In this document: in pieces, positions 1,651-55,419 of the stretch | Position numbering within the stretch: the stretch's first letter is position 1 | Layout: every line of letters begins with the position of its first letter | Source of the DNA: Hyphomicrobiales bacterium | GTDB taxonomy: Bacteria > Pseudomonadota > Alphaproteobacteria > Rhizobiales > Rhizobiaceae | Direction of reading: 5' to 3' | NCBI GenBank assembly: GCA_900466475.1 | Contig: UBMI01000022.1 | Coordinates: 1 to 64,000, forward strand | DNA: 64,000 bases | The notes under the pieces: model-generated | Seen by the model: only the letters and a program-made list of their open reading frames with translations | The model's database searches: none | What the model was told of the DNA's origin: nothing | Translations under genes and position numbers: made by a program

Positions 1651-3441
1651 TCAGGCCACCAGACCCTTGGTCAGTTCCAGCGCCTGCCGCTCGAATAACC
1701 GGCGATAGATGCCCTCGTTGAGCCGGATCAGAGCCTGGTGGTCGCCCTCTTCGACAATCTTGCCTTTGTCGAAGACCAGCAGCCGGTCCAGCGCCCGCAC
1801 AGTGGACAACCGATGTGCGATCACCAGCGTCGTGCGGCCGTCCATCAGGCGCTCCATGGCCTGCTGGATCTGTACCTCGCTCTCGCTGTCGAGGCTCGAC
1901 GTCGCCTCGTCCAGGATCAGCACCGGCGCATCAGCCAGGAAGGCCCGGGCGATGGCAACACGCTGCCGCTCTCCGCCCGATAGCTTGACACCACGTTCCC
2001 CCACCATCGTCTCATAGCCCTTGGGAAGGCCGATGATGAAGTCGTGCGCATTGGCCTGTTTCGCCGCCTGCTCGATTTCACGCCGCGATGCGTTCGGCCG
2101 GCTATAGGCGATGTTTTCCGCCAACGTGCGGTGGAACAGGATGGGTTCCTGTTGCACGATGGCGATCTGGCCGCGCAGGCTTGCCTGCCTGACCTCAGCG
2201 ATATCCTGCCCGTCGATGCGGATCGAACCGGATTTCACGTCATGAAGGCGCTGGATGAGCTTGACGAATGTCGTCTTGCCCGAGCCCGAATGCCCCACCA
2301 GTCCCACACGCTCGCCCGGCTTGATGGTGACCGAAAAGTCCTCATAAAGCGGATTGGGATGAGCGCCATATTGGAAGGTGACGCGATCGAAGACGATCTC
2401 GCCCCTGCCAATCTCGATCGGCACGGCATGCGGCTTGTCCTCGATGCCGAGCGGCATCTTGTCGAGCAGCACCAGTTCTTCCATGTCGTTGACGGCCCGT
2501 TGCAGATTGCGGATGTCCTGGCCGACATTGCGCAGATAGCCCTGCAGGACGAAGAACATCGCCAGCACGAAGGTGATGTCGCCGGGCGTCGCCAATCCCC
2601 GCTGCCACATGACCAGGCCCGTTCCCAAAATACCCGCCTGCATGAAAACCATCATGAAGCCCTGGATCGTGCCGCTCGACGTGCCGCGCTTCCATGTCCG
2701 CCGAGTGCGACTGTCCCATTTGGCCAGCACATGACCCAGCCGCGTCTCTTCGCGGCTCTCGGCGCCGAATGCCTTGACCACCGAGTTGCAACTGATGGCA
2801 TCCGCCAGCGCGCCGCCCAGCTTGGTATCCCAGGCGTTGGCAAGCCTTGCAGCAGGCGAGACAAAACCCATGGAAAGCGCCACGGTCACACCGATGTAGA
2901 TGACCGACCCGACAATCACGATGAGGCCCATGACCGGCCAGTAGCTTCCGAGAACGATACTGGCACCGGCAAGCATGACGATGGACGGCAACAGGGCTAT
3001 CAGCAGCAGGTCATTGAGCGAGTCGAGCGCCCACATCCCGCGGGTAATCTTGCGCACCGTCGAGCCGGCGAAGCTGTTGGCGTGCCAGTCGGTCGAGAAC
3101 CGCTGCACCTTGTGGAAGCCGTTATTGACGACATCCGCCATAATGCGCAGCGTCAGCCGGATAATGCCATTGAAGATGAACCACCGCAGGGCCACGCTCG
3201 TCAGGCCCAGAGCCACGACGATGACAAAGGCGCGTAGGGCGCGATCAGCCTCATTGCCGGCTGCAATGGCATCGACGATCTGGCCGGAAAACACCGGCAC
3301 CATGACTTCAGCAAGCGTGCTTGATATCACCAGCACTACGATGATGCCGACCAATGCCGGCCGATGGCTCCAATGATGAAAGACAAAGCCGAGCACGTGG
3401 CGATACGCGTCGGCGCGGAAATCGAGCTTCTTGCGAGTCAT
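1651..3441 (-). CDS. ABC exporter, fused permease and ATPase
   Basis: A 596-residue half-transporter of the MsbA/LmrA type. The first ~300 residues carry about six hydrophobic segments. The C-terminal ATPase has Walker A GHSGSGKTT (about residue 383), the signature LSGGERQRVAIARAF (about 489), Walker B VLILDEATSSLD (about 509) and the H-loop IAHRLST. It should work as a homodimer in the inner membrane exporting a hydrophobic or amphipathic substrate, which is unknown. It stands alone, with the PTE-family gene behind it on the same strand and the outer-membrane gene divergent in front. Confidence 0.93.
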   Translation of the reverse strand: MTRKKLDFRADAYRHVLGFVFHHWSHRPALVGIIVVLVISSTLAEVMVPVFSGQIVDAIAAGNEADRALRAFVIVVALGLTSVALRWFIFNGIIRLTLRIMADVVNNGFHKVQRFSTDWHANSFAGSTVRKITRGMWALDSLNDLLLIALLPSIVMLAGASIVLGSYWPVMGLIVIVGSVIYIGVTVALSMGFVSPAARLANAWDTKLGGALADAISCNSVVKAFGAESREETRLGHVLAKWDSRTRRTWKRGTSSGTIQGFMMVFMQAGILGTGLVMWQRGLATPGDITFVLAMFFVLQGYLRNVGQDIRNLQRAVNDMEELVLLDKMPLGIEDKPHAVPIEIGRGEIVFDRVTFQYGAHPNPLYEDFSVTIKPGERVGLVGHSGSGKTTFVKLIQRLHDVKSGSIRIDGQDIAEVRQASLRGQIAIVQQEPILFHRTLAENIAYSRPNASRREIEQAAKQANAHDFIIGLPKGYETMVGERGVKLSGGERQRVAIARAFLADAPVLILDEATSSLDSESEVQIQQAMERLMDGRTTLVIAHRLSTVRALDRLLVFDKGKIVEEGDHQALIRLNEGIYRRLFERQALELTKGLVA

Positions 3442-4050
3442 TTTAACCAGCCCGGCCCGTGTTTCGGCAACCGGTTCCTCAAAATCGAGAGTTGAATGGC
3501 ACAGCCCGAGCGGGAGACGAAATGATCCCGTCAGATCAATCGGGCTATGGAGAAAGAGAAAACCGCATGTCGCGAGCGCTCAAGGCGGACCGCGAATGGA
3601 TATGACCTAGTGTCGGGACATTCCACGCGGGAAGGTTTGGATGAATGCTGGTGTCATGCAATGCCTCCCTATGTTCGATCTGAAGCGGCTAGCGTCTTGT
3701 AGCGAACCAATTCGCCGTTGCCAACCGGCTTTTTACAACCTTGTAGAAAGTGATGCGAAAACGACACAATTCAGCGACCTGCAACCTGCATTTGGTCATG
3801 CTGACATCAAGTTCCCGCCTTTTGCGAGGTCAATAAGGAATATTTCTCCGCTGGTTGATGAACCCGGGAAGCCAAACCGATCTATCCTCGGCATGGCACC
3901 TCCTGTTGCACCGATGACACGGGAGTTGCATTGTGAACGCGAACCCAGCCTCCCATCGACCAGGCAACCTTGACTAGCCCCGCATTGCCGGCCATTTTCG
4001 ATGACGTAATGGCGCCTTGGGGGCGATGCTTTACCCGGAGATCAATCTCG
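3442..4050. other. Divergent intergenic region
   Basis: Roughly 600 bp between the ABC exporter and the MipA/OmpV gene, which diverge here. It must hold both promoters. An open frame at 3641-3973 on the plus strand has no recognisable protein features and is not called. No repeat or hairpin stood out. Confidence 0.5.
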
Positions 4051-4884
4051 TTGAGAACGAAAGCCAAGAGGCTTACGCTTTTTTCTGCGGCCTTGGGGGT
4101 GCTGTCAACCGCGTCACTGGCGACTGCCGCTGACCAGAAAGACGCATCCAACCAGTCCGATTCCGGCACCTGGATCGTGACTTTGGGCGCGAGCGTCGAG
4201 TATGGGCCCAAATTTCCGGGCTCGAAGCATGATGGCTTCAGCGCATTGCCCTCTTTCGACATCAGGCGCTTCGACGAGCCGGACGAGAATAGCGCGCCGG
4301 ACGACAATATCGATTATGGCCTTATCGATCTCGGCCGCTTCGAAGCGGGTCCTGTGGTCGGCATTCGCGACAGCCGTTCGCAATCCGATGATAGCCGCTT
4401 GAAAGGCATCCACTCGGTGGATTGGGACATCGATGCCGGTGTTTTTGCACAATATTGGGCGATCCCCAATCAGCTTCGATTCCGCTCCGAAATCCGGCAG
4501 GCCATCTCGAACGGCAGCGGTCTCGTCATCGATATCGGCGCCGATTGGTTCCAGCGGCTCGGTGACAGATGGCTGCTCTCTGCAGGCCCCCGCGCCTCGT
4601 TCGGCAACGGCGCCTATATGCGAGAGTATTTCGGTATTTCGTCAAGTGAAGCATTGCAGAATGGCGCTCTATCCTCCTTCGATGCCAAGGGCGGCTTGAA
4701 GTCGGTAGGCTTCACGGTCTCCGCCGCCTATGATGTGACCCCGACCATAACGCTGCAGATTTATGATCGCTTCGATCGCCTCACGGGAGATGCTGCCGAC
4801 AGCCCGATCACATCGAAGCTCGGCAGCGAGAATCAGAATGTAATCGGCATCTCCCTCGCCAAGGCGTTCAGCGTCAGCTTCTGA
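4051..4884 (+). CDS. MipA/OmpV-family outer-membrane protein
   Basis: A 277-residue outer-membrane beta-barrel protein related to MipA (murein-synthesis scaffold) and OmpV. The TTG at 4051 is chosen because it gives a classic signal peptide (RTKAKRLTLFSAALGVLSTA, then SLATAA before DQ) and has GGAG 10 bases upstream. ATG at 4009 (14 residues longer) or TTG at 3970 are possible but lack a ribosome binding site. The mature part alternates hydrophobic and polar residues, has FPGSKHDGF-type MipA signatures near its start, and ends in the C-terminal aromatic FSVSF usual for barrels. The neighbouring gene on its 3' side converges from the opposite strand. Confidence 0.82.
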   Translation: MRTKAKRLTLFSAALGVLSTASLATAADQKDASNQSDSGTWIVTLGASVEYGPKFPGSKHDGFSALPSFDIRRFDEPDENSAPDDNIDYGLIDLGRFEAGPVVGIRDSRSQSDDSRLKGIHSVDWDIDAGVFAQYWAIPNQLRFRSEIRQAISNGSGLVIDIGADWFQRLGDRWLLSAGPRASFGNGAYMREYFGISSSEALQNGALSSFDAKGGLKSVGFTVSAAYDVTPTITLQIYDRFDRLTGDAADSPITSKLGSENQNVIGISLAKAFSVSF

Positions 4885-4902: not shown

Positions 4903-5268
4903 TCAGCCGGCAGGTCTCGACGCTGTTGCGATCAGCCAGACGCCGGCCAGGATCAGAAGGCTGCCTGCGAGCCGAAGCAGCGGCAATGGCTCGTCAAAGA
5001 CGATCCAGGCAACGCCCATGATGAGGACATAGCTGATGGCCGAGAGCGGGAAGGCCTTGCTGAGATCGAGCTCGGAGAGAACGGTCATCCAGATGGCAAA
5101 GCAGACAATCTCAGCGACAATCGCCGCCAGGAACCAGTGTGACGACAAAATGTCGACCAGCCAGGTTCCGCCGGCTCTGTCTGCATCGATAGCGCTCTGC
5201 TTCAGCAATATCTGTTGCGCCATGTTCAGGAGCGGCACCATCAGCCAGATCGGCCGCAACGCTCTCAC
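4903..5268 (-). CDS. SMR/EamA-like four-helix membrane protein (distal copy)
   Basis: A 121-residue protein with four hydrophobic helices and the small multidrug resistance/EamA-half pattern (for example ELDLSKAFPLSAISYVLIMG followed by a GSLLILAGVWLI helix). Its size and motif resemble ArnE/ArnF, which together flip aminoarabinose-lipid carriers. It is the last gene of the eight-gene operon and overlaps the acyltransferase gene by 4 bp (ATGA). A second such gene lies in the same operon at 8098-8448, so the two may form a heterodimer. The flippase role is inferred from context. Confidence 0.8.
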   Translation of the reverse strand: MRALRPIWLMVPLLNMAQQILLKQSAIDADRAGGTWLVDILSSHWFLAAIVAEIVCFAIWMTVLSELDLSKAFPLSAISYVLIMGVAWIVFDEPLPLLRLAGSLLILAGVWLIATASRPAG

Positions 5269-6440
5269 GCCGTCACCTCACCGCCATCATCGGCCGCAAA
5301 CAGCGGCGACATCATTTTGAGAGCGAATTGCAGCAGTGGATTGGAATGGCGAAAATACATCGCATTTGCCGTCAAGCGGCTTCCGAGCCGAACCTTGTTG
5401 CGATAGTAGGCCTGCCCGCTCTGATAGCGGCCAATCCCGTGATTGAGACAATATTCGAGATTGCTGCACCAGCTGAGATAATAGAGGTTGTGGGACCTGC
5501 CCTTCTGACCATCCATGCAGAAGAATTTGTCGATCAACCTGTCCTTGTCATGGATCAGCAAATTGGCAGCAAGCAGTTCGTCCCCCACAAAATACATCGC
5601 GCAGAAGGACCGCCCCGGCATGCCTTTCAGCACACCATCAAAATAGGCCGGCGTCAGTTCTTCGAACTGTAATCCGCTCCGCTCGCGCGTCTCGCGATAG
5701 AGCTGCATAACGCGCGGCAGAAGATCATCGAAATCCTTGCGATACTCGATCCGTACCTCCTGCCGGCTCCGCAGTTTCCGCCGCATATCCTTGCGGGTCG
5801 CCGAGGACAGTGTGGCGAAATAGGCGTCGATCGTGTCGAATCCGATGTCCAGACATGCCGTCGGCAGTCCACCGATCTCGGCGTACCCTCTTGCCGCCAA
5901 GACCGGCTCCAGGCCTGACGGGATGGGGTGGGGCAGATCCTTAAGCGCTGTAAGCGAGCAGCCTTCCATGCGCGCATGCGCCTCGAAAGCGTCGAGAAGT
6001 TCGGCAAAGAGCTTTGGCCGGCGGGCTTGCGCGATATCAGGATGAAAGCCGATGGAGGCAGTCTCCGTGCAGGGCGAGCCAAGGCAAGCAAGACGGAGCG
6101 TCAGGAACCCGCTGAAGATGCGGCGGATGCCTTCCACCGTTCTGCGGAAGCGGCCAGCTTCCAGGGTCGTCTCAAGGGCGTAGCGGCAAAGGAATGCCGG
6201 CATGGCAGCGACAATCTTGTCGCCTTCGCGCATGATCGCGTAGCGCCACTCGAAACCGTCGATACCGGCTTCCTCGACCGCAAGCAGATAGTCGTAAGTC
6301 TCGATCTCCCCGGGGAAGCAGGCGTCCCAGGCATCGCGGTCAAGCATGCGAATGCTCGGGACGATCATCGCAACTGCCGATGTCGGATCGCTTGAGACCT
6401 GCGTTTCAGGTGACCACACTTTAAGCGCTTGCTGCTGCAT
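5265..6440 (-). CDS. GNAT/FemAB-like N-acyltransferase
   Basis: A 391-residue cytosolic protein resembling the FemAB-like acetyltransferase group (Acetyltransf_6 type, often annotated as peptidoglycan-biosynthesis-related). The C-terminal half shows the GNAT-like pattern: SATRKDMRRKLR, a RETRERSGLQFEEL helix, then YFVGDELLAANLLIHDKDRLIDKFF and YLSWCSNLEYCLNHGIGRYQSGQ. Start ATG at 6440 has GAGG 6 bases upstream. It overlaps the hydrolase gene by 20 bp and the SMR-like gene by 4 bp. It probably transfers an acyl or aminoacyl group to an amine made by the upstream enzymes; donor and acceptor are unknown. Confidence 0.78.
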   Translation of the reverse strand: MQQQALKVWSPETQVSSDPTSAVAMIVPSIRMLDRDAWDACFPGEIETYDYLLAVEEAGIDGFEWRYAIMREGDKIVAAMPAFLCRYALETTLEAGRFRRTVEGIRRIFSGFLTLRLACLGSPCTETASIGFHPDIAQARRPKLFAELLDAFEAHARMEGCSLTALKDLPHPIPSGLEPVLAARGYAEIGGLPTACLDIGFDTIDAYFATLSSATRKDMRRKLRSRQEVRIEYRKDFDDLLPRVMQLYRETRERSGLQFEELTPAYFDGVLKGMPGRSFCAMYFVGDELLAANLLIHDKDRLIDKFFCMDGQKGRSHNLYYLSWCSNLEYCLNHGIGRYQSGQAYYRNKVRLGSRLTANAMYFRHSNPLLQFALKMMSPLFAADDGGEVTA

Positions 6441-7236
6441 ATTCTGCCTCGAAGAATTCCGCCGTCATGTCAGCTACCCGCCTGTGCTGCCGGTCGAGAT
6501 GGATCATGTGATAGCTGTCGTCGAGCCAGCGCAATTCCCGGCGGCCGCCGATGTGCGATGCGATATACAGGGCATGCGAGGGGCCACTGAGATCGTCTTC
6601 GCGCGAATGGAGGATCAAGGTCGGTGTCTTGATCTCGGGAAGCCGGGCTTTCAGCGTCCGGCCAAGCTCATGCATTTCGATCAGGCCACGCCCCGGAAAG
6701 GTTTCGAGCATGCCCTCGCCGGTCATGCCGGCCACCATGCGGCGCATGCGCTCGTCCTTGATGCCGAGGGATGTCGTCTCCCGAAAATTCAGCCGGTCGA
6801 TGAATGGGATAAGCGAGATCCAGCGAATGTGCGGCGAAAACAGCGAATAATAGCGGGGCACGTCCCATCCATCGTAGTGGAAACAGGGCGAATAGACAGC
6901 GACGGCGCGGATCGACAGGGGATTACGATCGGCTGCCATCATCGCCAGTTTGCCGCCAACGCATATTCCGGCGGCAAAGACCGTGTCGCTGCGTTCGCTG
7001 AGCCAGCCAGCCGCGGCTTCGACGCTGTCGAGCCAGTCCTCCCAGCGCGAGCGGCGGAGCGTCGCTTCGTTTTCGCCGTGGCCGGCCAGCAGAGGAGCAT
7101 AGACGCTGAAGCCGCGGCGATGGAATTGCCTTGCCACAAGCCGCATTTCCGCCGGCGCTCCCGTCAGCCCATGAACAAGGATGACGCCCTTGCCGTTCGT
7201 GCCCTCGAGAAAGAAGGAGAGACTGTCAGCCGACAT
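6421..7236 (-). CDS. Alpha/beta hydrolase with Cys nucleophile (GICVGG)
   Basis: A 271-residue alpha/beta hydrolase close in layout to monoacylglycerol lipases/carboxylesterases (oxyanion HGLTGAPAEM, lid, late Asp and His). The nucleophile elbow reads G-I-C92-V-G-G, so the usual Ser is Cys. The Asp is probably D214 or D215 in REDD and the His H243 or H246 in SYHMIH. Cys elbows are known in dienelactone hydrolases and polyhydroxyalkanoate synthases. It may therefore act through a thioester, possibly as an acyltransferase. GGGAG lies 9 bases before the ATG. It overlaps its operon neighbours by 11 bp (desaturase) and 20 bp (acyltransferase). Confidence 0.82.
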   Translation of the reverse strand: MSADSLSFFLEGTNGKGVILVHGLTGAPAEMRLVARQFHRRGFSVYAPLLAGHGENEATLRRSRWEDWLDSVEAAAGWLSERSDTVFAAGICVGGKLAMMAADRNPLSIRAVAVYSPCFHYDGWDVPRYYSLFSPHIRWISLIPFIDRLNFRETTSLGIKDERMRRMVAGMTGEGMLETFPGRGLIEMHELGRTLKARLPEIKTPTLILHSREDDLSGPSHALYIASHIGGRRELRWLDDSYHMIHLDRQHRRVADMTAEFFEAEYAAASA

Positions 7237-8101
7237 GCGGGAATTCTCCCTGCTGGCGGTTCTCCTTAGCCATGAAACCCAGCGCGTGGCAGGTGCTGAT
7301 CACATGCGTGCCTGCCGCATCCTGCTCCTGCTTGATCTGCTCATGAAAGGTACTGAGCTTCGTCCAGTGCATCTTAGGGCGGTAGTGATGCTCGGCGTGA
7401 TAGCCGTTACCGAACCAGAGCCAGTTATAGAAGCCGTTATGGCTGCTGACACCCCAGGCGATTGGAACATCGGGGTCGCCATTCAGATGCTCATAATAGC
7501 CGTTGAGAGAGGACAGGCAGTTCCCCAAATAATAAAACGGCAGGAAAAAGAACGTCGCTCTCCAGTCATAGATAAGAGCGAGGAAGACGAAGGCGAAGAA
7601 CGATACGAGTTCAATGCGCCCCCATCTCGCATCGAACGGCCTTTTCTTCGCAATCGCCCGATGGATGTCGCCGAGATCATCGCGGAAGAAGCTGAGAAAC
7701 GTGTAGGAGAAGACGTTTTCCGGCTCGCCGTTCTTGCCGTGCTTGTAGATCGACAGGAGGTCGACCGTCTCGCCGTTTTCATTGGGACGGTCGCTGTTGC
7801 CGGAATGATGGCGCATATGCACCCAGTGATAATAGACCTGCGAAAAGCCGATCGTTACGGATTCGAGCAGGCTGAATGCATAGTTCATCCACTTCGGCTT
7901 GAAATACGGCGTGTGGATGAAGTTGTGCGAGATGCTGTTGATGTTCCACGATATCGACACGGCATAGACCGCGCCGAGCACAGCCGACAGCCAGAGTGGC
8001 CGGCTTGAGAAGCCGGCAATCAGATAGATGTTGAATGCCAGATGCGCTGTCGCGGCAAGCACCGGCATGACATCCCATTTCGTGTGCGCGAAGATTTTCA
8101 T
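7226..8101 (-). CDS. Membrane fatty-acid desaturase/hydroxylase family
   Basis: A 291-residue di-iron membrane enzyme. The three histidine boxes are visible: H59-N-F-I-H63, H92-W-V-H-M-R-H98-H99 and H235-A-E-H238-H239, with a further H245. Hydrophobic pairs of helices separate the boxes. The open frame extends upstream, but ATG at 8101 (MKIFAHTKWDV) is chosen since it overlaps the stop of the SMR-like gene by exactly 4 bp (ATGA), the pattern seen elsewhere in this operon. It could desaturate or hydroxylate an acyl chain or another lipid; the family also includes carotenoid and sphingolipid hydroxylases. The substrate is not known. Confidence 0.88.
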   Translation of the reverse strand: MKIFAHTKWDVMPVLAATAHLAFNIYLIAGFSSRPLWLSAVLGAVYAVSISWNINSISHNFIHTPYFKPKWMNYAFSLLESVTIGFSQVYYHWVHMRHHSGNSDRPNENGETVDLLSIYKHGKNGEPENVFSYTFLSFFRDDLGDIHRAIAKKRPFDARWGRIELVSFFAFVFLALIYDWRATFFFLPFYYLGNCLSSLNGYYEHLNGDPDVPIAWGVSSHNGFYNWLWFGNGYHAEHHYRPKMHWTKLSTFHEQIKQEQDAAGTHVISTCHALGFMAKENRQQGEFPHVG

Positions 8102-8448
8102 AGTCCCGTCGCTCCGACACAGACCACGCCGGCCGTCACCAGGACGATGCCGAGAGCGTGGCGAAGGTTGATGGTTTCCTTGAAGATAACGGCGCCTGCA
8201 AAAGCGATCGCCGCATAGCTCAGCGCCATCAGTGGAAAGGCCACCGACAACGCCACCTGTTCCAGCACGCGCGTCCACATCACCAGTTCGACCGCCCAGA
8301 ACACGATCCCGAGCCAGATGACCGGTTTCTGAAGGGTTTCGAGCAGCGCGCTTGCAGCGCCGTGCTTGAAGCACAACTCACGGCCGGTTTCGGCAAGAAC
8401 GCAAAAGGCAATGATGGCGAACGTCCATGCTGTCAGTCCCGTCGTCAT
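8098..8448 (-). CDS. SMR/EamA-like four-helix membrane protein (proximal copy)
   Basis: A 116-residue protein with four membrane helices, including an early Glu in CVLAETGRELCFKHG and an EQVALSVAFPLMALSYAAIA segment that is typical of SMR/ArnE-like halves. It overlaps the arginase-like gene and the desaturase gene by 4 bp each, so translation is coupled. It is related to, but clearly different from, the protein at 4903-5268. A heterodimeric lipid flippase or amine exporter is the simplest reading; this is inference. Confidence 0.8.
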   Translation of the reverse strand: MTTGLTAWTFAIIAFCVLAETGRELCFKHGAASALLETLQKPVIWLGIVFWAVELVMWTRVLEQVALSVAFPLMALSYAAIAFAGAVIFKETINLRHALGIVLVTAGVVCVGATGL

Positions 8449-9398
8449 GCCATAAGCTCCGACAGGACTTCGAGCAGCGCGTGGTTTGCCGCACTGTTGA
8501 TGTTGCGGGCAGCCTTCATGTCGTGATGACGGAAGGGCTGGTCGATCAGCACCTCTGCCTTCTTGATCGTCCGCGTGTAGAGATCGCCGCCGTAATACGG
8601 CGTCGAATAATCGCCGGTCACGTCCGCTCCGATGAGATGGTACCGTTCACCGATTTCGCTGAGCAGCCAAAGGACATAGGGTAGCCGCATGCGGCCCTGA
8701 TCCCAATTGGTCACGGCATCGGCGTCGGAGAGAGCGTCCTTGTCGATCGTGACGTAGACCGCTTCGGTTTGGATGCGGCCGAGAAGCCGGTCGAGGAAAT
8801 TGCTCTCGCCGAGTTCCGATATCGATTGCCAGTGCAGGGCTCCGTCGATCTGGCTGAAACTCGGGCCAGAACCGTAGTGCGATTTCACTTTGCTCGGCGG
8901 ATGCTTATAGGGATAAAGTTCAAGGCGGCCGTCGGCTAGCGGCACCAGATTGGCGCCCTTGCGCTCCGGTGACCTGAGGTCGTGGCTGCAAACGCCGAGC
9001 GTTATCACCTTTTTGACCAGGGGCTGTTCGAGCGCCTTGTTGACCCACGAACCGCAATGCATGCCGGGATCGAAATGCACCCAATCCGGGTGATTGTCGA
9101 TATGGATGACGGTGACGGCTTTGCGGCTATTCTCGAGGGCCTGCGACAGAAGAAGAGCCGTCACATGATGGAAGTCGCCCGATCCCATGAAACAAAGGCG
9201 GGCGCCTTCACCAGTTGAGGGCCGGGCCTTCGCCAGGTTGCGCCAGACGGTATCAAGGTCCGGCCGGCGCCCCCACAGCCTGATGGCGCGGCCGCTATCC
9301 TTGTCGTCGACTTCGTGCGCCCCGGCCATCTGGCAGGAATGCACGAAGTCTGGCTGCAACTCCAACGCATCATCAAGATGGAGAAGGAGGAGCTGCAA
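8445..9398 (-). CDS. Arginase-fold (ureohydrolase superfamily) protein
   Basis: A 317-residue protein carrying the metal-binding pattern of arginases/agmatinases in altered form: G74-D75-F-H77-H78 in place of GGDHS, D101-N-H103-P-D105 in place of DAHTD, and T-I-D219-K-D221 in place of SxDxD. All expected metal ligands have a candidate, so a binuclear metal site is likely retained. The flanking sequence is unusual for canonical arginase, so the substrate may be a guanidino or amide compound other than arginine. The start is TTG, supported by GGAG 8 bases upstream inside the 3' end of the aminotransferase gene, which ends 4 bp before it. Confidence 0.82.
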   Translation of the reverse strand: MQLLLLHLDDALELQPDFVHSCQMAGAHEVDDKDSGRAIRLWGRRPDLDTVWRNLAKARPSTGEGARLCFMGSGDFHHVTALLLSQALENSRKAVTVIHIDNHPDWVHFDPGMHCGSWVNKALEQPLVKKVITLGVCSHDLRSPERKGANLVPLADGRLELYPYKHPPSKVKSHYGSGPSFSQIDGALHWQSISELGESNFLDRLLGRIQTEAVYVTIDKDALSDADAVTNWDQGRMRLPYVLWLLSEIGERYHLIGADVTGDYSTPYYGGDLYTRTIKKAEVLIDQPFRHHDMKAARNINSAANHALLEVLSELMA

Positions 9399-9402
9399 GG
9401 TC

Positions 9403-10815
9403 CTATCTCCGCTCGGCGCGCGTCAGAAGCTGGTCGAGCAGCGAGATAGCAAGCTCAATCTCCTCGCGGCTGATCATCAGGTTCGGTGCAAGGGTGATGA
9501 CGTTCTTGTGGTATCCGCCGACGTCGAGCACCAATCCATATTTCCTGCCATCGACCGCAAGATCACCCTTCATGCCTTCGTCGGACATCCAGTCGAGCGT
9601 CGCCTTGTCGGGAGTGAACCCGTCAGGCCCGCAGATTTCCATCCGAAGGGCAAGGCCGAGGCCGTCGACATCGCCGACGATAGGATGCCGCGACTGCAGC
9701 TCCTTCAGGCCTTCGAGGAAGAGTGCGCCTTTTTCCACCACACTCGCGCCGAAGTCGGTTTCAGACACCATCTTCAGCGTTTCGAGAGCGACGGCCGTGC
9801 CCATCGGGTTGCTGGCGAAGGTCGAATGCGTGGAGCCTGGCGGGAAGATCGTCGGGTTGATCATCTCTTCTTTGGCCCAGATGCCCGAAAGCGGGTTGAG
9901 ACCATTGGTGATTGCCTTGCCGAAGACGAGCACATCCGGCGACACGCCGAAATGTTCGATCGACCAGAGCTTTCCGGTCCGATAGACGCCCATCTGAATC
10001 TCGTCGACGACAAGCAGGATGCCATGATCGTCGAGGACCTTCTTGAGCTCCTTGAAGAAATTCATCGGCGGGATGACATAGCCGCCAGTGCCCTGGATAG
10101 GTTCGATGTAGAAGGCGGCATATTCCGATTTTCCAGCCTTCGGATCCCAGACGCCGTTGTACTCACTTTCAAACAGCCGCGCGAATTTCTGGACGCAATA
10201 GTGCCCGTATTCCTCCTTCGACATGCCCTTCGGTCCGCGAAAGTGATACGGGAATTCGATGAATTGGGCCCGTTCGCCAAAATGGCCGTAACGCCGGCGA
10301 TAGCGGTAGCTCGAGGTGATCGACGTCGCGCCGAGCGTACGTCCGTGGTATCCGCCCTCGAAGGCGAACATCAGGCTCTTGCCGCCAGTATAGTTGCGAA
10401 CGAGCTTCAAGGAATCCTCGACTGCCTGCGAGCCGCCGACGTTGAAGTGAACGCGACCTTTCGAACCGAATTTATGTTCGGCATCCCGAGCGATCAGCGC
10501 TGCGAGCTCGACCTTTTCGCGATGGAGATATTGCGAGGCAACCTGCGGCAACCGATCCAGCTGCCGATGCGCGGCATTGTTCAAACGCTCGTTGCGATAG
10601 CCGAAATTGACGGCGGAATACCACATCTGGAGATCGAGAAATGGTGTTTCGGCTGCGTCAAAGACGAATGAACCATCGCAGCTTTCGAAGAATTTCGGCT
10701 TCTGCGAGTAATGAACCGTATCGCCGTGGGAGCAATAGGTCTCTTCGAGCTGTCGCAGCTCGTCTTCAGAGGCGGTGGGGTGCACATTGGCAGCAAGTTT
10801 CAGGTTGGAACGCAT
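9403..10815 (-). CDS. Class III PLP-dependent aminotransferase
   Basis: A 470-residue fold-type I aminotransferase of class III (ornithine/GABA/diaminobutyrate type). Recognisable are the GGSQAVE phosphate-binding turn (127-133), the VVDEIQMG segment with the PLP-ring Asp (about 270-276) and the Schiff-base lysine K300 in FGKAITNGLNPLSG. The usual AKGIGGG wording around the lysine is replaced, which suggests a distinct subfamily. GAGGA lies just before the ATG. It is the second gene of the operon, 12 bp after the HAD gene. It would install the amino group of the pathway product. Confidence 0.9.
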   Translation of the reverse strand: MRSNLKLAANVHPTASEDELRQLEETYCSHGDTVHYSQKPKFFESCDGSFVFDAAETPFLDLQMWYSAVNFGYRNERLNNAAHRQLDRLPQVASQYLHREKVELAALIARDAEHKFGSKGRVHFNVGGSQAVEDSLKLVRNYTGGKSLMFAFEGGYHGRTLGATSITSSYRYRRRYGHFGERAQFIEFPYHFRGPKGMSKEEYGHYCVQKFARLFESEYNGVWDPKAGKSEYAAFYIEPIQGTGGYVIPPMNFFKELKKVLDDHGILLVVDEIQMGVYRTGKLWSIEHFGVSPDVLVFGKAITNGLNPLSGIWAKEEMINPTIFPPGSTHSTFASNPMGTAVALETLKMVSETDFGASVVEKGALFLEGLKELQSRHPIVGDVDGLGLALRMEICGPDGFTPDKATLDWMSDEGMKGDLAVDGRKYGLVLDVGGYHKNVITLAPNLMISREEIELAISLLDQLLTRAERR

Positions 10816-10827
10816 GAAGTCCTCTTC

Positions 10828-11511
10828 TCACGCAGTTTTTGCCACGGCCTGTACAACAGGCTGCCGTGACGGGCTGGAAAGGATGGTTGCGACACTCGCC
10901 TGGATTTCGGCGAAGCCGCTATAGGGGATGAAAGGAAGGCAATTCGCGCGGCAGTAATCCGCAAGCCTGGCCTTGGCGAAGACAAGCAGCGCCTCGTGGG
11001 AGACGCAGAAGTCGCTGCGGCCGTCGCCGATATAGACATGGTTGCCGGACGGCCTCACCTGGGCGCATTTGCACACGCCGGCACCGGCGGTGCAGCTCGC
11101 GCTCTTGAATGGAAAGCCCAGATCGAATTCAGGCATGCCGACGTGCGGGCGAGAAATCAGCCTGTTTGCGATGATCCGAATGTCATCCAGGCCATGCCTG
11201 GCAAGGACCCGCCTTATAAAATGATCGACGCCATCGCTGACGATGACGAGTTCAAGCCCGTTCTTTTCACAGAAGGCCTTGAAAGCCCCAAAGGCATTGT
11301 CGATTTCGATCGTGTCCAGAAATGCGTCGATGTCTTCGCGTCTTGCCTGAAGCAGCTGGATCTGGCGGTGCATGCACTGGGCGGATGTGATCCTGCCATT
11401 GGTCCACTGATCTTCGATCTCGCGCCACTCCGCGCGCGCAAACCGGTCCAGAACGAGATCCGTCACGTCCTCTTTGGATATGGTCCCGTCGAAATCGCAA
11501 AACACCTGCAT
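10828..11511 (-). CDS. HAD-IB phosphatase, MtnX/SerB-like
   Basis: A 227-residue HAD-superfamily phosphatase. Motif I is CDFDGTIS with D6 and D8, motif II is VIVSDG, and motif IV is GDGRSD. ATG at 11511 is chosen: AAGGAG lies 6 bases upstream, whereas the longer GTG start at 11526 would place the ribosome binding site inside the gene. It is the first gene of the eight-gene operon and begins 37 bases after a four-fold repeat array. It should dephosphorylate a small phosphorylated intermediate. Five Cys residues, including the CTAGAGVCKC segment in the cap/core region, are odd for the family and may bind metal. Confidence 0.87.
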   Translation of the reverse strand: MQVFCDFDGTISKEDVTDLVLDRFARAEWREIEDQWTNGRITSAQCMHRQIQLLQARREDIDAFLDTIEIDNAFGAFKAFCEKNGLELVIVSDGVDHFIRRVLARHGLDDIRIIANRLISRPHVGMPEFDLGFPFKSASCTAGAGVCKCAQVRPSGNHVYIGDGRSDFCVSHEALLVFAKARLADYCRANCLPFIPYSGFAEIQASVATILSSPSRQPVVQAVAKTA

Positions 11512-11547
11512 CGCATGCTCCTTCACTGTGAAGAAGCATTTAGCCTC

Positions 11548-11590
11548 GCGAACTGAAGGCGAGATGAGGCGAATATGAAGCGAAACTGAA
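11548..11590 (-). promoter_or_regulatory. Four tandem ~11-bp repeats, probable response-regulator array
   Basis: On the plus strand the units are GCGAACTGAAG (11548-11558), GCGAGATGAG (11559-11568), GCGAATATGAA (11569-11579) and GCGAAACTGAA (11580-11590). The consensus is GCGA-N3-TGAA at one helical turn. It fills the gap between the kinase gene and the HAD gene and lies 37-79 bases upstream of the HAD start. OmpR/PhoB-type regulators bind tandem direct half-sites with this period. TAAAT closer to the gene could be a -10 element. Binding by the adjacent regulator is inferred. Confidence 0.7.
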
Positions 11591-11598
11591 TTGACCGC

Positions 11599-12966
11599 TT
11601 ATGCGGCAGGAATATCGAGGTCCACCTTCAGGCCGGATCCCCAGGCCGGCGTGCTGAGGCTGATCCCGATGTCGAGACGGTTGCCGATATCGGCGACGAT
11701 CGGCAATCCCAGTCCCGCACCCTCCCCGGCTTGCGCGTCGAGGCGGTTGAACCGCTGAAAGGCGGCCTCCCGCTGCTCGAGCGGGATACCGGGGCCGCTG
11801 TCTTCGATGCAGAGCCGAAATCCGCGCGAGCCGGGTTCGATGCGGACCTCGATCCGACCGCCGGCGGGCGAATATTTGATCGCATTGTCGAGGACATTAT
11901 CGATCATGACACGCAGCAGAGCACGGTCGGTCAAGACTTGCGGGTCTTGCGTTGCGACGAGCCCGACGTGGAAACCCCGGCGATTGAGGATGACCCCGAA
12001 ATCCGCCAGGGCTGCCGCCGCAATCTGGCGGAGCGGCAACGCTTCCAGCTGCACCGGTTGATGGCTGACGCGTGCAAGCCGCAGCAACTGCTCTATGAGA
12101 TGCATGGCGCGCTCGTTGCTGACGACGAGGTCCTTCAGCAGGGCCGCGCGCTCCTCATCGGAATCGGCACGATCAAACATTTGCAGGAGCAATTTGATGC
12201 CGGCCTGCGGCGTTCGCAATTGATGGGCAGCAAGATCGGAAAAGCGCCGCTCCATCGTCAGCGAGCGGCCAAGCTTTCGCAAAAGATTGTTGAGCGAGTG
12301 GACAAGCGGCGCCAGATCCCGCGGCAGGGCTTTCGTGGCAATCATCGACAGGTCATCCGGCGTACGGGCACGGATCTGCGAGACCAGCTCCCGGACATTG
12401 GCGAGCCCGTTATTGATGGCGAGCCAGATGATGATGGCACTGACCGGCACAAGAATGAGCAGCGGAAAGGCGAGATTGAGAAGGATGTTATCGACGAGGC
12501 CTTCCCGAAGGATGATCTTCTCGGCGACCTCAATGGTCACGTCACTATTCGGGATCGGCAGAGCATAGACCCGCCAGAGCTCGTTCTGATAGGTCACATC
12601 GGTGAAACCGGCCGAGAACCGCTTGACCTCATCAGGAAAGGCGTTGCTGCTGGCAAAGGCCAGCGCTGACCCCCTCCAGGCGCGAAACGAATGGGCGTCG
12701 GCATAGTCGTCCGCGTCCTCGTTGAGAGCAAGCTGGTTGTCCATGGTGAAATCAAGATCCGGGACCTGCACCGTCGGTCTTGCCGTCAATCTTGTGAGGG
12801 GATGCTTCATCAACGACCAGAGTACATTGGCGTCATTGATCAACTGCGCATCGTAGATATTGTCGATCTCGCGCGTAGCACTGCGATAGGCGAAGATACC
12901 AACGATGGCGATCGTGATGATGAGCGTCGGGAGAATGCGGAGAAAAAGTCGTTGGCTAAGTGTCAC
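11599..12966 (-). CDS. Sensor histidine kinase, TctE/QseC type
   Basis: A 455-residue membrane kinase. TM1 is at about 11-29, a periplasmic 2CSK_N-like sensor of ~130 residues follows with an acidic patch (NEDADDYADAH), TM2 is at about 160-183, then a HAMP-like linker. The H-box FSDLAAHQLRTP has the phospho-acceptor H248, the N-box is DNVLDNAIKYSP (about 356-367), and G-boxes are EDSGPGIP and GAGLGLPIV. It overlaps the regulator gene by 4 bp and is followed after 87 bp by the eight-gene operon on the same strand. The acidic sensor could respond to cations or cationic peptides, as in PhoQ/PmrB systems; this is a guess. Confidence 0.93.
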   Translation of the reverse strand: MTLSQRLFLRILPTLIITIAIVGIFAYRSATREIDNIYDAQLINDANVLWSLMKHPLTRLTARPTVQVPDLDFTMDNQLALNEDADDYADAHSFRAWRGSALAFASSNAFPDEVKRFSAGFTDVTYQNELWRVYALPIPNSDVTIEVAEKIILREGLVDNILLNLAFPLLILVPVSAIIIWLAINNGLANVRELVSQIRARTPDDLSMIATKALPRDLAPLVHSLNNLLRKLGRSLTMERRFSDLAAHQLRTPQAGIKLLLQMFDRADSDEERAALLKDLVVSNERAMHLIEQLLRLARVSHQPVQLEALPLRQIAAAALADFGVILNRRGFHVGLVATQDPQVLTDRALLRVMIDNVLDNAIKYSPAGGRIEVRIEPGSRGFRLCIEDSGPGIPLEQREAAFQRFNRLDAQAGEGAGLGLPIVADIGNRLDIGISLSTPAWGSGLKVDLDIPAA

Positions 12967-13625
12967 TGCTGCCGCTCGACCATGTAACCGACGCCGCGGA
13001 TCGATCGGATGAAATCAGTACCGAGCTTCTTGCGCAGGTTATAGACCGTTACTTCTATCGTGTTGCTCTCAACCGAAACATCCGTGTCGTAGAGCGCATA
13101 CTCGATATCGTTCTTCGTGACGTAACGTCCGCTCCGCTCCATGAGAAGCCGCAGGAGATGGAACTCCTTGGCGGGGATGTGAAGCTGTACGCCATTTCGG
13201 CGGGCCACCATGGCCGAAGGGTCGAGCTCGACGTCGGCGCATCGAATGATTGTCTCGGTGCGGCCCTGCCGTCGCCGGATCAGTGCACGCAGTCGGGCGA
13301 GCAGTTCGTCAAGGTCGAAGGGTTTGACGAGGTAATCGTCCGCGCCTTCGTCCAGGCCGGCGACGCGGTCGCGCACGCTGTCGAGCGCTGTCAGCATCAG
13401 GATCGGAACGTCGTTGCCTCCCCTCCTGAGCGAACGGGCCACATCAAAGCCGCTCGCCTTGGGAAGATTGACGTCGAGGATCACGCATCCAAATTGGCTG
13501 TCGCGCAGCGCGTCGAGCGCCGTCTCGGCATCGCGGAACCAATCTAAGCCATAGGCGTGTTTCTCGAGTGCACGTTTCAGCGAGGAGCCGAGAATGTAAT
13601 CATCTTCGACCAGGAGTATGCGCAC
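12963..13625 (-). CDS. OmpR-family response regulator
   Basis: A 220-residue regulator with receiver domain (phosphorylation site D51 in VILDVNLP, conserved Thr in LMLTALD, Lys in LVKPFD) and a winged-helix output domain (SGRYVTKNDIE...ESNTIEVTVYNLRKKLG, IRSIRGVGYMVE). GTG at 13625 (reading MRILLVEDD) is preferred over ATG at 13664 because AAGGA lies 7 bases upstream and the receiver starts there. It overlaps the kinase by 4 bp. The four-repeat array upstream of the HAD gene is its likely target. Confidence 0.93.
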   Translation of the reverse strand: MRILLVEDDYILGSSLKRALEKHAYGLDWFRDAETALDALRDSQFGCVILDVNLPKASGFDVARSLRRGGNDVPILMLTALDSVRDRVAGLDEGADDYLVKPFDLDELLARLRALIRRRQGRTETIIRCADVELDPSAMVARRNGVQLHIPAKEFHLLRLLMERSGRYVTKNDIEYALYDTDVSVESNTIEVTVYNLRKKLGTDFIRSIRGVGYMVERQQ

Positions 13626-13841
13626 GTCCGCATCCTTGCGATTTAAATTCTCACCATGCTTCATCGGTCTCGATTGAGGCCGAAATCCGGCGAAGATTTC
13701 CGCATGCTGTCGGAAACCCCTCTACGCTGGTGCGGATACTTCGAGACCGAACCGGATTGTATGATCAGTCGGCGGCAGACCGGCAGGCTTTGTTCCTGAC
13801 GGATCGCCTCATCGCAACAGCCTCATGAACGGCGGGGCGTT

Positions 13842-17683: not shown

Positions 17684-19422
17684 GTTCAGCACAATCAAAA
17701 TCACAGGTTCTGACACCGCTTGACGACGGACAGCTTCGCTCGTCGACGCCGGTGCTCGTCCCGTTCATGGCCCCGCGCCTGCAGGGTGATTGTCGACCGG
17801 AAGGTAGGATCGAGCTTTCGCTATGGGGCGCGGGCAAGCTCGTCAATCTGACGTTCACCGGCTGGAGCGCCCCTTTCACTTATGCACCGAACCGCGTGGA
17901 AGCGCATGGTGGAGGGCTCTATGTGGCGCAGTCGGCACCGGCGCTCTTCTTGAAAGGTGCAAAGCTGCGGACCTTCATCCCTGCCCGGCGCTGCGCATGG
18001 TGGGGCACGACGACGAAGCGCGAACCCATCGAACGGCAAGAGGGTCGCCGCATTGCCCGCACCGGCTGGGGCGTCGCCATCGCGGAGCAAAGGCCTGACG
18101 GCATCTTCGTGACGGCCGGTGCGACGATCGGGGAAGCGCTTGCAGCTCTTGAGCTCGACCAGACGAAACTGATTGCCGAGGCCAATGCCTATGTCACGCG
18201 TTGCGACGCGATGCCCGAGGCGCCTGCTCTGATGCGCAGCATGATCTCGCAAAGCCTGCACGCCGCCTTTTCGAGCATAAGACAGGACGAGCACGGCGCC
18301 TTTGCCGGCCTTGCCGCCGGACAGGCCTACAGCGCGCCGGCTCGCACCTATTACCGGGACGGCTATTGGACACTCCAGGCTCTCCTGGATCGGGAACCGG
18401 GCGCCGTCCGCGCCCAGATCGATCTTCTGGCACGAGGCGTGCAGGACAACGGCGAAGCGCCGAGCGGCGTCATCCTGACCGGACGAGGACAGGCCGAGGA
18501 ATGGGAAAAGGTACGCGTGACAGATCCACGGATCAAGGAGGAGCACCTTCGACCCGGTGACTGGTGGAGCGACCATTTCGACAGCCCGCTCTTCTTCATT
18601 CTGACGATCGGCGATTACATCAATGCGACCGGCGACAGCTCGCCGCTTGCCCTCTACTGGGATAAGGTTTTGGCGATCTTCAATCGTTACTGCAGCTTCG
18701 ACGAAACCGGAACAGGCTTGCCGATCAAGCCGCGGCATGATCGCGATTGGGCCGACAACGTCTATCGTCACGGTTATGTCGCCTATGATCTCGGCCTGTG
18801 GATCGGGGCCCTCGACGTCATCGCAAAGCACGGCGCCGCGCTCGACAAAGCCTTTGCGTCGAAGGCGGCAGCCGTGGCGCAAAAGGCGCGTGCTTCGCTG
18901 GACGAGGCGCTTCTGCAACCGGGCGGCACCTACGCGGACTACGGGACAAAGGCAGATTTCGTCGAAGACCATCTGACGCTCGACAGCCTGACGCTGCTTC
19001 GCTTCAAGGCGGTTTCTCCCGAGCGGGCGAAAGGCGTTCTCGCCAAGGTCCAGGAGATCCTGGAAAGTCGCAACAATGGCGAACAGCCTTACGGAGACTG
19101 GGGCGTGCTTTGCGCCTATCCGCCGTTCAAGCGCCCCAAGGATACGCGTGAGAAATCCTATTTCGCCTATCGCTACCACAATGGCTCGGACTGGCCCTAT
19201 CTTTCCGGGCTCTATGCCGAGCAACGGCTTGCCTACGGCTTGGACGGCGCGGATTACCCGCTCGTGCGCTGGTGGGAGACCTGCCTCGAAGAGGGCTGGA
19301 TGGGAGCGGTCGAATATTTCTCGCCACCCTGGGGACGCGGCTCGCTGCTTCAGGGATGGAGCAGCATGCCGGCCGCCGCCGCGCTTGCCTACAAGGATAG
19401 GCTGCCGGACGCGATCCGCTAG
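17680..19422 (+). CDS. (alpha/alpha)6-barrel glycoside hydrolase
   Basis: A 580-residue cytoplasmic protein without signal peptide. The C-terminal two thirds resemble amylo-alpha-1,6-glucosidase/MGH1-type (alpha/alpha)6 glycosidases: ARTYYRDGYWTLQALL, RHDRDWADNVYRHGYVAYDLGLW, YHNGSDWPYLSGLYAEQRL, and WGRGSLLQGWSS near the end. The N-terminal ~200 residues form a beta-rich domain typical for the family. Acidic residues in YRDGYW, HDRDWAD and GSDWPY are catalytic candidates. The exact GH family and linkage are not clear. It is coupled to the ROK kinase and sits in the ROK regulon, so it acts on imported oligosaccharide. Confidence 0.83.
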   Translation: MSSAQSKSQVLTPLDDGQLRSSTPVLVPFMAPRLQGDCRPEGRIELSLWGAGKLVNLTFTGWSAPFTYAPNRVEAHGGGLYVAQSAPALFLKGAKLRTFIPARRCAWWGTTTKREPIERQEGRRIARTGWGVAIAEQRPDGIFVTAGATIGEALAALELDQTKLIAEANAYVTRCDAMPEAPALMRSMISQSLHAAFSSIRQDEHGAFAGLAAGQAYSAPARTYYRDGYWTLQALLDREPGAVRAQIDLLARGVQDNGEAPSGVILTGRGQAEEWEKVRVTDPRIKEEHLRPGDWWSDHFDSPLFFILTIGDYINATGDSSPLALYWDKVLAIFNRYCSFDETGTGLPIKPRHDRDWADNVYRHGYVAYDLGLWIGALDVIAKHGAALDKAFASKAAAVAQKARASLDEALLQPGGTYADYGTKADFVEDHLTLDSLTLLRFKAVSPERAKGVLAKVQEILESRNNGEQPYGDWGVLCAYPPFKRPKDTREKSYFAYRYHNGSDWPYLSGLYAEQRLAYGLDGADYPLVRWWETCLEEGWMGAVEYFSPPWGRGSLLQGWSSMPAAAALAYKDRLPDAIR

Positions 19423-53691: not shown

Positions 53692-55419
53692 GTGACCAGC
53701 ATTCTGACGAACACATCCGCCATCGCCGCACTTCAGACGCTTCGAAGCGTCAACGCGGGACTTGAGAAAACACAGCATCAAGTCAGCTCCGGCCTCCGAG
53801 TTCAAAAGGCGTCAGACAACGCGGCTTATTGGGCGATCTCGACAACGATGAGGTCGGACAACAGGGCATTCTCGGCTGTATCCGACGCCATCGAATTGGG
53901 GGCAGCGACGGTCGACACTGCTTATGCCGCGACGTCATCCATCATCGACATCCTTGGTGAATTCAAAGCCAAACTCGTTGCGGCCAAGGAAAAAGGCGTC
54001 GACAAATCGAAAATTCAGGACGAACTCAACCAGCTTAGCGCGCAGGCGCAGGCAGCCGTGATATCGGCGAGCTTCAGCGGCCAGAACTGGCTGAGCACCA
54101 ACGCTTCGACGCACCTGATGGAAACCACCGAACTTGCAACCGATGTGGCCTCTTCCTTCGTCCGTTCGGAGAATGGAGCGGTGGCCGTCACGACGACGAA
54201 GGTGAACCTCAAGAACACCAGCATGCTGAACGCCGGAGGCGGCGGCATCCTGCAGAAGGAGCTCGGCGGTGTCGGCGACATCGGCGGCTTCCGAAGCACG
54301 GGCATCAATTCCGTGGCGCACGAAGGCCACGAAAGCCACAGTTTCACCGGCCCGGCGACTTTCGGCACCACGGACTACATCACGTTCGATCTGGTTGTGG
54401 ATGCAGGTACGCTTTCGGGAGGTATTACCTATTCCGGGCTGAGGATCGACAAGGCTGTCATCGACTCCGCGCTAGGCACGAGCGACGGCACGATCCATGA
54501 CGGTGCAGAGATGCGAAAAGTGCTCCAGAAAGTATTCGCCGACAACGCTGTCAAAGCGACCGCCAATGAGACAATGTTCACAGGCTCGACGACAGCAACG
54601 GATGTCTTTGAGATCGGTTCCCTTGAGACTTCCGGTCATCCAGGTTCCAGCATCGATATCTCCAATGTCGTATCCAATCTCGGAAGCTCGTATCCCGCCG
54701 GCTTCGCCATGGGCCTGGAAAACCCGCCGAGACAGAACCACGACAATATGTATCCGGAAGCGTGGTTCGATTTCACCAAGCCGTTCACCGTATCGCCGAC
54801 GTCGCAGATTTTCTTCGACGCTCAGGTCGGTCCCGGCGCGCCTCAATCCTTCACCATCGACCGTGCGACCGTCGATGCGGCACTCGGCACGACCGACGGC
54901 ACAGTTGGAAGTGCCGCGGACCTCGCGACCGTCATAGAATACGTCACGACCGGGATGGGCCTTTCGGTGACCACGTCCGGCAACCAACTGACGTTTTCCG
55001 CGGATCGGACAATGTTTCCGGAAGCAGGCAATCGCGCCGCCCGCGTCATGGTCGGGAATGTCACGTCCAATCCGACCTGGGCTTTGGAATTCGATCTCGC
55101 CGAAGTCGATGTGACGACATCAAGCTTCACTGTCGACGAATACCTGGTTGGCGTCGAATATATGCTCCATCGATCGACGACCAGCGGCAGCGTCCTTGGC
55201 TCCCTCGACAAGCGCCTGGGCATGCAGTCGGATTTCGTCAGCCATCTTCAGGCCAGCATGACATCCGGTATCGGACGCTTGGTCGATGCAGACATGGAAG
55301 AAGTATCCGCGAGGCTGACGGCCCAACAAACCCAGCAACAGCTGTCCGTCCAGGCACTTCAGATCGCCAATCGGGGACCGAGTACGATTCTTCAGCTTTA
55401 CTCGGGACGTCAGAGCTAG
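53692..55419 (+). CDS. Flagellin with long central domain, orphan copy
   Basis: A 575-residue flagellin; rhizobial flagellins are usually 320-430. The N-terminal D0/D1 part (MTSILTNTSAIAALQTLRSV, SSGLRVQKASDNAAYWAISTTMRSD) and the C-terminal part (ARLTAQQTQQQLSVQALQIANRGPSTILQLY) are well kept. The central region has a repeated unit: IDKAVIDSALGTSDGTIHDG near residue 251 and IDRATVDAALGTTDGTVGSA near 388. The start is GTG. No other flagellar gene is near, so it lies outside the main cluster and may be a surface variant. Confidence 0.9.
   Translation: MTSILTNTSAIAALQTLRSVNAGLEKTQHQVSSGLRVQKASDNAAYWAISTTMRSDNRAFSAVSDAIELGAATVDTAYAATSSIIDILGEFKAKLVAAKEKGVDKSKIQDELNQLSAQAQAAVISASFSGQNWLSTNASTHLMETTELATDVASSFVRSENGAVAVTTTKVNLKNTSMLNAGGGGILQKELGGVGDIGGFRSTGINSVAHEGHESHSFTGPATFGTTDYITFDLVVDAGTLSGGITYSGLRIDKAVIDSALGTSDGTIHDGAEMRKVLQKVFADNAVKATANETMFTGSTTATDVFEIGSLETSGHPGSSIDISNVVSNLGSSYPAGFAMGLENPPRQNHDNMYPEAWFDFTKPFTVSPTSQIFFDAQVGPGAPQSFTIDRATVDAALGTTDGTVGSAADLATVIEYVTTGMGLSVTTSGNQLTFSADRTMFPEAGNRAARVMVGNVTSNPTWALEFDLAEVDVTTSSFTVDEYLVGVEYMLHRSTTSGSVLGSLDKRLGMQSDFVSHLQASMTSGIGRLVDADMEEVSARLTAQQTQQQLSVQALQIANRGPSTILQLYSGRQS

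Follow-up and report, generated by a model that had tools for sequence, protein, structure and literature searches.

The window analysed here is a stretch of 64,000 nucleotides on contig 18 of the 7.2-Mb genome of a Hyphomicrobiales bacterium (GenBank assembly GCA_900466475.1). It contains a cluster of eight genes on the minus strand, running from position 11511 to 4903 behind the genes of a two-component system. A sequence-only reading had described the cluster as eight co-directional genes for an acylated amine or aminolipid, and all eight open reading frames (ORFs) were confirmed in a single direction. The junctions from the first gene, encoding a phosphatase, to the last, encoding the second of two small multidrug resistance (SMR)-type proteins, measured +12, +4, −4, −4, −11, −20 and −4 nt; the earlier statement that gaps do not exceed 12 bp was thus right, and that of mostly 4-bp overlaps slightly off, with three of seven. 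Along its entire extent, the region 4903–11526 matched plasmid p1 of 'Sinorhizobium sp. B11' at 98.9% identity. For the phosphatase the ATG at 11511 was the preferred start, in agreement with the annotation of the related locus L007, and for the desaturase an ATG at 8101 replaced an upstream GTG at 8374, the short form being annotated in L007 and L008.

Genes and gene products of the cluster

The first gene (10828–11511) encodes a HAD-IB phosphatase, assigned by family match, that was nearest to MtnX and whose catalytic motifs were conserved across 84 sequences. It is followed by a class III pyridoxal phosphate (PLP)-dependent aminotransferase (9403–10815; Aminotran_3 match), the best-conserved member of the cluster, which shares about 70–90% identity with its counterparts in those other genera that have it. 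Among solved structures its closest relatives include both racemases and aminotransferases, which do not fix its substrate. Downstream of the metal hydrolase and first SMR genes lies the gene for a membrane di-iron desaturase/hydroxylase (7226–8101; FA_desaturase match) with three His boxes that were invariant in 62 sequences. The next encodes an alpha/beta hydrolase (6421–7236; Hydrolase_4 match) whose closest relatives are monoacylglycerol lipases and whose nucleophile motif is GICVGG (GxCxG); of 86 sequences, 70 had Cys at the nucleophile position and 16 had Ser.

The third gene (8445–9398) encodes a metal hydrolase of the arginase/ureohydrolase fold. At the sequence level its match to Pfam Arginase was weak (E 3.8e-9), no NCBIfam model scored above its cut-off, and searches against solved structures gave one match at E 0.59 with the single sequence and 3e-6 with a profile. 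The ureohydrolase fold was confirmed in a predicted structure (pLDDT 94.7), which aligned with ureohydrolase structures at Z 21.6–23.6 among the 50 matches listed. The best of these was 8d27 (Z 23.6, rmsd 2.9, 241 aligned), with arginase, proclavaminate amidinohydrolase, guanidinase, formimidoylglutamase and guanidinopropionase all within about 1.2 Z of it. In 47 sequences the candidate ligands H77, H78, D101, H103, D219 and D221, which from their motifs we take to bind a binuclear metal centre, were invariant and D105 was conserved in at least 90%; beyond the last metal motif comes a TNWDQG stretch that is likewise invariant.

The two SMR proteins are small membrane proteins encoded at 8098–8448 (first, ArnE-like) and 4903–5268 (second, ArnF-like). 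For both, the ArnE and ArnF models outscored Qac/Ebr models and were the best found, at 47.5 bits (cut-off 92) for the first and 45.5 bits (cut-off 99) for the second, so that membership of either equivalog was not reached. The second matched Pfam EamA; the first scored 23.3 bits with that model, under its cut-off of 28.2.

The seventh gene (5265–6440) encodes a protein of 391 amino acids that matched FemAB_like and Acetyltransf_6 only, with no match to PF09924. Searches against solved structures with the single sequence gave nothing at E<=1, and with a profile nothing better than E 0.2, to unrelated entries. Its predicted structure (pLDDT 90.2) shows, along most of the chain, a dual GNAT (Fem) fold and aligned best with FemX (6snr; Z 22.0, rmsd 4.7, 303 aligned) and Sbb17 (9wqw; Z 21.6, rmsd 2.9, 276 aligned). 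FemX, Sbb17/Sba18 and FemA (Z 20–22) ranked above MprF (17–19), and this above CoA-using GNATs and N-myristoyltransferases (16–17); enzymes that use acetyl-CoA or myristoyl-CoA thus have the same fold, at Z of about 16–17. The sequence-only reading had named this protein a FemAB-like N-acyltransferase. Its family placement stood, and the nearest folds proved to be those of aminoacyl-tRNA-dependent FemX and Sbb17, then of MprF; judged by the model, the enzyme most resembles aminoacyl-tRNA-dependent transferases and 'N-acyltransferase' may mean aminoacyl transfer. Given this resemblance, fatty N-acylation is no more than a candidate activity. One COG3146 protein and one PF13480 protein have been proposed to act as aminoacyl-tRNA amide ligases in argolaphos biosynthesis (PMC8976061). 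A guess that COG3146 includes a pterin-dependent enzyme was not borne out in Xanthomonas (PMC3223725).

Conservation, distribution and neighbouring genes

Related loci were collected by a pattern scan for relatives of the arginase-fold gene in a collection holding one genome per species. This found at least 576 places, of which the best 80 were used; plasmids and further genome stretches were added, and the final set comprised the 91 loci in which the arginase-fold gene was flanked by 5.5 kb or more in either direction. The core was defined as the phosphatase, PLP aminotransferase, arginase-fold enzyme, two SMR proteins, alpha/beta hydrolase and FemAB/GNAT transferase. Co-occurrence of the families in gene neighbourhoods had been set beforehand as the test of the sequence-only reading, with rare co-occurrence as its refutation; the test came out in favour of the reading, the full core being present in 85 of the 91 loci, across Alpha- and Gammaproteobacteria. 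By gene, the transferase was found in 91 loci, the hydrolase in 88, the phosphatase and at least two SMR genes in 87 each, and the class III aminotransferase in 85, with a HemL-like aminotransferase in four more. The idea of all eight families as a unit held for this seven-gene core and not for the desaturase, which, because it is optional (58 of 91 loci), is predicted from its distribution to be a tailoring rather than a core enzyme.

On plasmids, every one of the 34 records matching the aminotransferase at E 1e-90 or better contained the arginase-fold gene as well, the lists being compared by eye. In a further 14 arginase-fold records this aminotransferase was missing at the same threshold; three of the 14 were taken as loci (Roseomonas L012, Azospirillum L013 and Aureimonas L014), and there a HemL-like enzyme takes its place. 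The arrangement is therefore more than chance, since it recurs across orders and classes and the plasmid pairing is 34 of 34. Its distribution is patchy and often plasmid-borne: counting the window's own genome, a cluster gene was found in 65 of 148 genomes of the genus, 6 of 199 in the family sample (searched with a single sequence at a looser cut-off than the other ranks), 3 of 385 in the class sample and 16 of 398 in the phylum sample. One other genome of the window's species carries the gene, and the aminotransferase DNA of locus L121 had no match in Escherichia coli genomes. In the Pseudomonas putida locus L088 the FemAB-like transferase gene is present in two copies (11300–12460 and 18054–19181).

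Six loci had an incomplete core (L011, L125, L068, L069, L113 and L114). L011 (Bartonella; 10720–13242) and L125 share a layout in which the trio of aminotransferase, transferase and arginase-fold genes adjoins genes for AlgX-like and DltB-like MBOAT proteins, hinting at a different transfer step. No SMR match was detected in L068 and L069, where a membrane-type protein (DUF4337 in L068) is encoded between the aminotransferase and arginase-fold genes (9476–9994 and 9458–9994, respectively); in L113 and L114 the aminotransferase and phosphatase were not found in the stretch.

In relatives the unit is extended by genes for cyclopropane fatty acid (CFA) synthase, acyl carrier protein (ACP) and ketoacyl-ACP synthase (KAS), and DevC/MacB-like pumps. 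Of the 58 loci that have the desaturase, 30 had an adjacent CFA synthase gene, vs none of the 33 that lack it (Fisher p 6e-8, not corrected for relatedness). KAS genes occurred in 6 of the 91 loci, ACP genes in 5, DegT aminotransferases in 11, DevC-type permeases in 14, HlyD-like adaptors in 15 and outer-membrane factors in 6, and no non-ribosomal peptide synthetase (NRPS) or polyketide synthase (PKS) was annotated in the seven annotated loci.

A second group of neighbours is related to envelope defence. The convergent neighbour in the window is a plus-strand gene for a MipA/OmpV outer-membrane protein (3970–4884), an association that is conserved, with MipA near the cluster in 57 of 91 loci; in total, three MipA genes are present in the genome of the window. 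MipA of Pseudomonas aeruginosa binds polymyxins and has been proposed as a co-sensor for ParS (PMC10936184). In L068, L069 and L075, ArnT/ArnB/ArnA-C-like genes immediately precede the same two-component system and cluster (in L069 via similarity to L068); L075 adds ArnC, and ArnD above the model cut-off. L008 adds EptA and DgkA, giving one of 91 loci with EptA–DgkA and three with arn genes. A role in defence against cationic peptides is suggested by these neighbours, MipA, arn genes and EptA–DgkA.

Three further features of the window were recorded. Just past the MipA gene, on the minus strand, lies a gene for an MsbA-related ABC exporter (1651–3441) that scores under the MsbA model cut-offs. 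At 40791–43308 on the minus strand, a leucyl-tRNA synthetase gene is present as two overlapping ORFs in different frames (model positions 1–470 and 475–842), which may reflect a disrupted additional copy or an error in the sequence. At 53692–55419 on the plus strand, a flagellin-like protein of 575 amino acids is encoded, of which only residues 1–193 match the flagellin model.

Regulators and control elements

As the sequence-only reading had indicated, the cluster has its own two-component system directly upstream, and this resembles QseBC/PmrAB. The genes, also on the minus strand, encode an OmpR-family response regulator (12963–13664; NCBIfam QseB 207 bits, cut-off 345; PmrA 199 bits, cut-off 330) and, overlapping it by 4 nt, a QseC/PmrB-like sensor histidine kinase with a 2CSK_N sensor domain (11599–12966). 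Between the end of the kinase gene and the phosphatase gene, which are 72–87 nt apart depending on the phosphatase start chosen, is a candidate operator of four TCA half-sites with an 11-bp period (11553–11589, minus strand), an array kept in relatives. A strict four-site pattern fitted to this site occurred once in the 7.2-Mb genome, at this very position, with none in the backward control.

Regions upstream of the phosphatase gene were compared among loci, with starts called by script and expectations taken from dinucleotide shuffles. At least three TCA half-sites at the 11-bp period were present in 34 of 54 loci wired to an OmpR-type system (shuffle expectation 0.10), and a relaxed four-site form with one TAA allowed in 45 (no shuffle value); a −24/−12 site was found in none of the 54. 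The pattern was reversed in loci wired to sigma-54-type regulators, with −24/−12 sites in 11 of 13 (expectation 0.06) and no TCA array in any. Among 14 loci with neither pair, the strict array and the sigma-54 site were both absent, and the relaxed array was present in two.

Genes for an extracytoplasmic function (ECF) sigma factor, FecR and a TonB receptor lie upstream in 4 of the 91 loci, all of Caulobacter type. The pattern TGAGG-N16-GCGTC occurred 14 times, in 8 of 12 Caulobacterales-type loci, with none in the backward control; one of the 12, L077, is assigned no more closely than to Alphaproteobacteria. The pattern had been derived from six phosphatase upstream regions after viewing them, and was then left unchanged for the search that yielded the other eight sites. 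An earlier pattern with a spacer of N18–24 had given no matches in 7 Caulobacterales-type and 76 other regions, its spacer being wrong. Because a downstream ORF is weak evidence in GC-rich DNA, it is the identity of the downstream genes that carries the argument. Those beginning 27–83 nt past the 14 sites were seven phosphatase operons, one ACP-KAS, two ACP-like genes (one at 18.7 bits against a cut-off of 20.8, one assigned by visual inspection), a single CFA synthase and three glycerophosphotransferase-like genes of one family, with a weak match to that function (E 0.0089) in one member and none in a further member, L067. Taking the match between element and regulator together with the shared ECF-type sites, the predicted control element changes with the local regulator, and acyl-chain genes are among those carrying the putative ECF-type element.

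A predicted envelope aminolipid pathway and its alternatives

The conservation, gene order, regulator-matched promoter elements, folds and acyl-chain gene linkage computed here show a genuine, conserved unit that has a control element of its own. With moderate confidence, we read it as an inducible operon whose products make and flip an aminated envelope lipid bearing an acyl group; the acyl-chain links, the lipase-like hydrolase and the defence neighbours support the envelope-lipid direction taken by the sequence-only reading. In such a pathway, the aminotransferase and phosphatase would form a small, amino-alcohol-like amine as building block, and the FemAB-like transferase would make an amide bond between this amine and either a tRNA-borne aminoacyl group or an ACP-borne acyl group. 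Trimming or unmasking of the head group or lipid may fall to the arginase-fold enzyme and the lipase-like hydrolase, and the acyl chain would be completed by the desaturase where present and by the cyclopropane synthase in relatives. The two SMR proteins would serve as an ArnE/ArnF-type flippase, with a DevC/MacB-type pump moving the product onward in some lineages, and the adjacent two-component system would activate the unit when the envelope is attacked, cationic peptides being the most likely agents.

The logic is like that of arn or mprF with different enzymes, and the cluster is a member of neither. The arn operon, which serves to place 4-amino-4-deoxy-L-arabinose on lipid A and is under PmrAB-type control, has in common with the window PLP-dependent amination, an amide hydrolase and an SMR heteropair, and is its direct neighbour in L068, L069 and L075. 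It differs in that the window uses a class III instead of a DegT-type aminotransferase and has acyl-chain enzymes; ArnA, ArnC, ArnD, ArnT and UDP-sugar enzymes were not among the Pfam/NCBIfam matches of the eight window proteins. MprF/LpiA, an aminoacyl-phosphatidylglycerol synthase and flippase that is paired with the hydrolase AcvB, shares a Fem/GNAT-fold transferase (Z of about 18–19 to MprF), a flippase part and an alpha/beta hydrolase, whereas the window has a separate transferase and SMR proteins as well as dedicated amine-forming enzymes; an LPG_synthase_C domain fused to a multi-span flippase was not found in its FemAB-like protein, the similarity being one of fold only. Two MprF C-terminal matches from the genome searches lie at the very start of contigs (G000:C35:1-612, L127; G000:C21:1-612, L128), suggesting an assembly break in or near the gene. 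Ornithine-lipid synthesis by OlsB and OlsA also combines a GNAT N-acyltransferase with an amine lipid, but the window proteins had no match to PF13444 (E 0.01), which we take to be the OlsB family, and no OlsA-type acyltransferase was among their matches. With the glycolipid exporter DevBCA the likeness lies in an accessory that is not part of the window's cluster, the permeases of L010 and L060 matching the devC model at 58–61 bits vs a cut-off of 290. The acylated polyamines of Myxococcus (homospermidine lipids, hsl; PMC9548883) resemble the product class first envisaged, a likeness by description and no more than a lead. A serinol head group of RtxA-like origin was considered as a further candidate. 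No described pathway and no paper on this cluster were found in a literature search of open-licence papers, a weak absence that agrees with the sequence-only reading.

One alternative is an Arn-like pathway in which a small amine is attached to lipid A or to an undecaprenyl-linked carrier. Through amine formation, FemAB-like N-protection, arginase-fold deprotection and flipping by the SMR pair, it would give modified lipopolysaccharide instead of a free lipid. It could account for the best scores of the SMR proteins being with ArnE/ArnF models, for the DegT aminotransferases that adjoin the SMR pair in 11 of 91 loci, for UppP in a Roseomonas locus and for the arn genes adjoining in three loci. 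We consider it unlikely, as those SMR scores are below the equivalog cut-offs, glycosyltransferase, ArnC and ArnT are absent from the matches of the eight window proteins, and ACP/KAS, CFA synthase and desaturase are left unexplained as members of the operon or regulon. Likewise unlikely is a cluster for a secreted acylated amine, which might act as a signal, a surfactant or an antibiotic and would be exported by the SMR pair and a DevC/MacB-type pump. The permease, adaptor and outer-membrane factor genes (14, 15 and 6 of 91 loci), the patchy, often plasmid-borne distribution and the amide ligases proposed for argolaphos (PMC8976061) point towards it; 77 of 91 loci had no DevC-type permease at the score used, the regulators and some neighbours are envelope-stress-like, and the seven annotated loci lack annotated NRPS and PKS genes. 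That the cluster degrades or detoxifies guanidino compounds or amines, with SMR proteins exporting drugs or guanidinium, is very improbable, for although the ureohydrolase fold keeps its metal ligands and some SMR proteins export guanidinium, ArnE/ArnF models outscore Qac/Ebr models and the lipase-like hydrolase and the desaturase, CFA and ACP/KAS links are unexplained.

Several observations weigh against the envelope aminolipid operon and its proposed control. No head-group-to-lipid transferase is evident in the window's operon, and a pump could mean a secreted compound. The loci were fetched via the arginase-fold gene and are clumped phylogenetically, mostly in Rhizobiaceae, so that the counts are not independent. 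DegT, KAS, ACP and the DevC-type permease are each confined to a minority of the 91 loci, and the most specific defence links (arn, EptA) cover four. The strict TCA array is missing in 20 of 54 OmpR-wired loci, the −24/−12 match in 2 of 13 sigma-54-wired loci and an ECF-type site before the phosphatase gene in 5 of 12 Caulobacterales-type loci. The TCA array is also absent upstream of the window's own regulator and MipA genes and, in its strict form, from all 35 MipA upstream regions; a place for MipA in the same regulon is not claimed.

More tentatively, the envelope aminolipid reading may extend to an undescribed class of envelope aminolipid, made by a mobile cassette that swaps regulators (OmpR-type, sigma-54 or ECF) in Alpha- and Gammaproteobacteria. 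A ureohydrolase-fold enzyme would there carry out a head-group step and a Fem-fold aminoacyl-tRNA transferase would add charge, possibly providing a third general route of defence against cationic peptides beside arn and mprF. The small operon and clear candidate operator make the proposal directly testable. If the envelope aminolipid reading is right, a lipid pathway that is still uncharacterised would be present in many environmental Proteobacteria, with 576 or more candidate places in the collection of one genome per species and 65 of the 148 species genomes in the genus. A lipid class, a new use of an arginase-type enzyme and a plasmid-transmissible form of envelope defence would be added.

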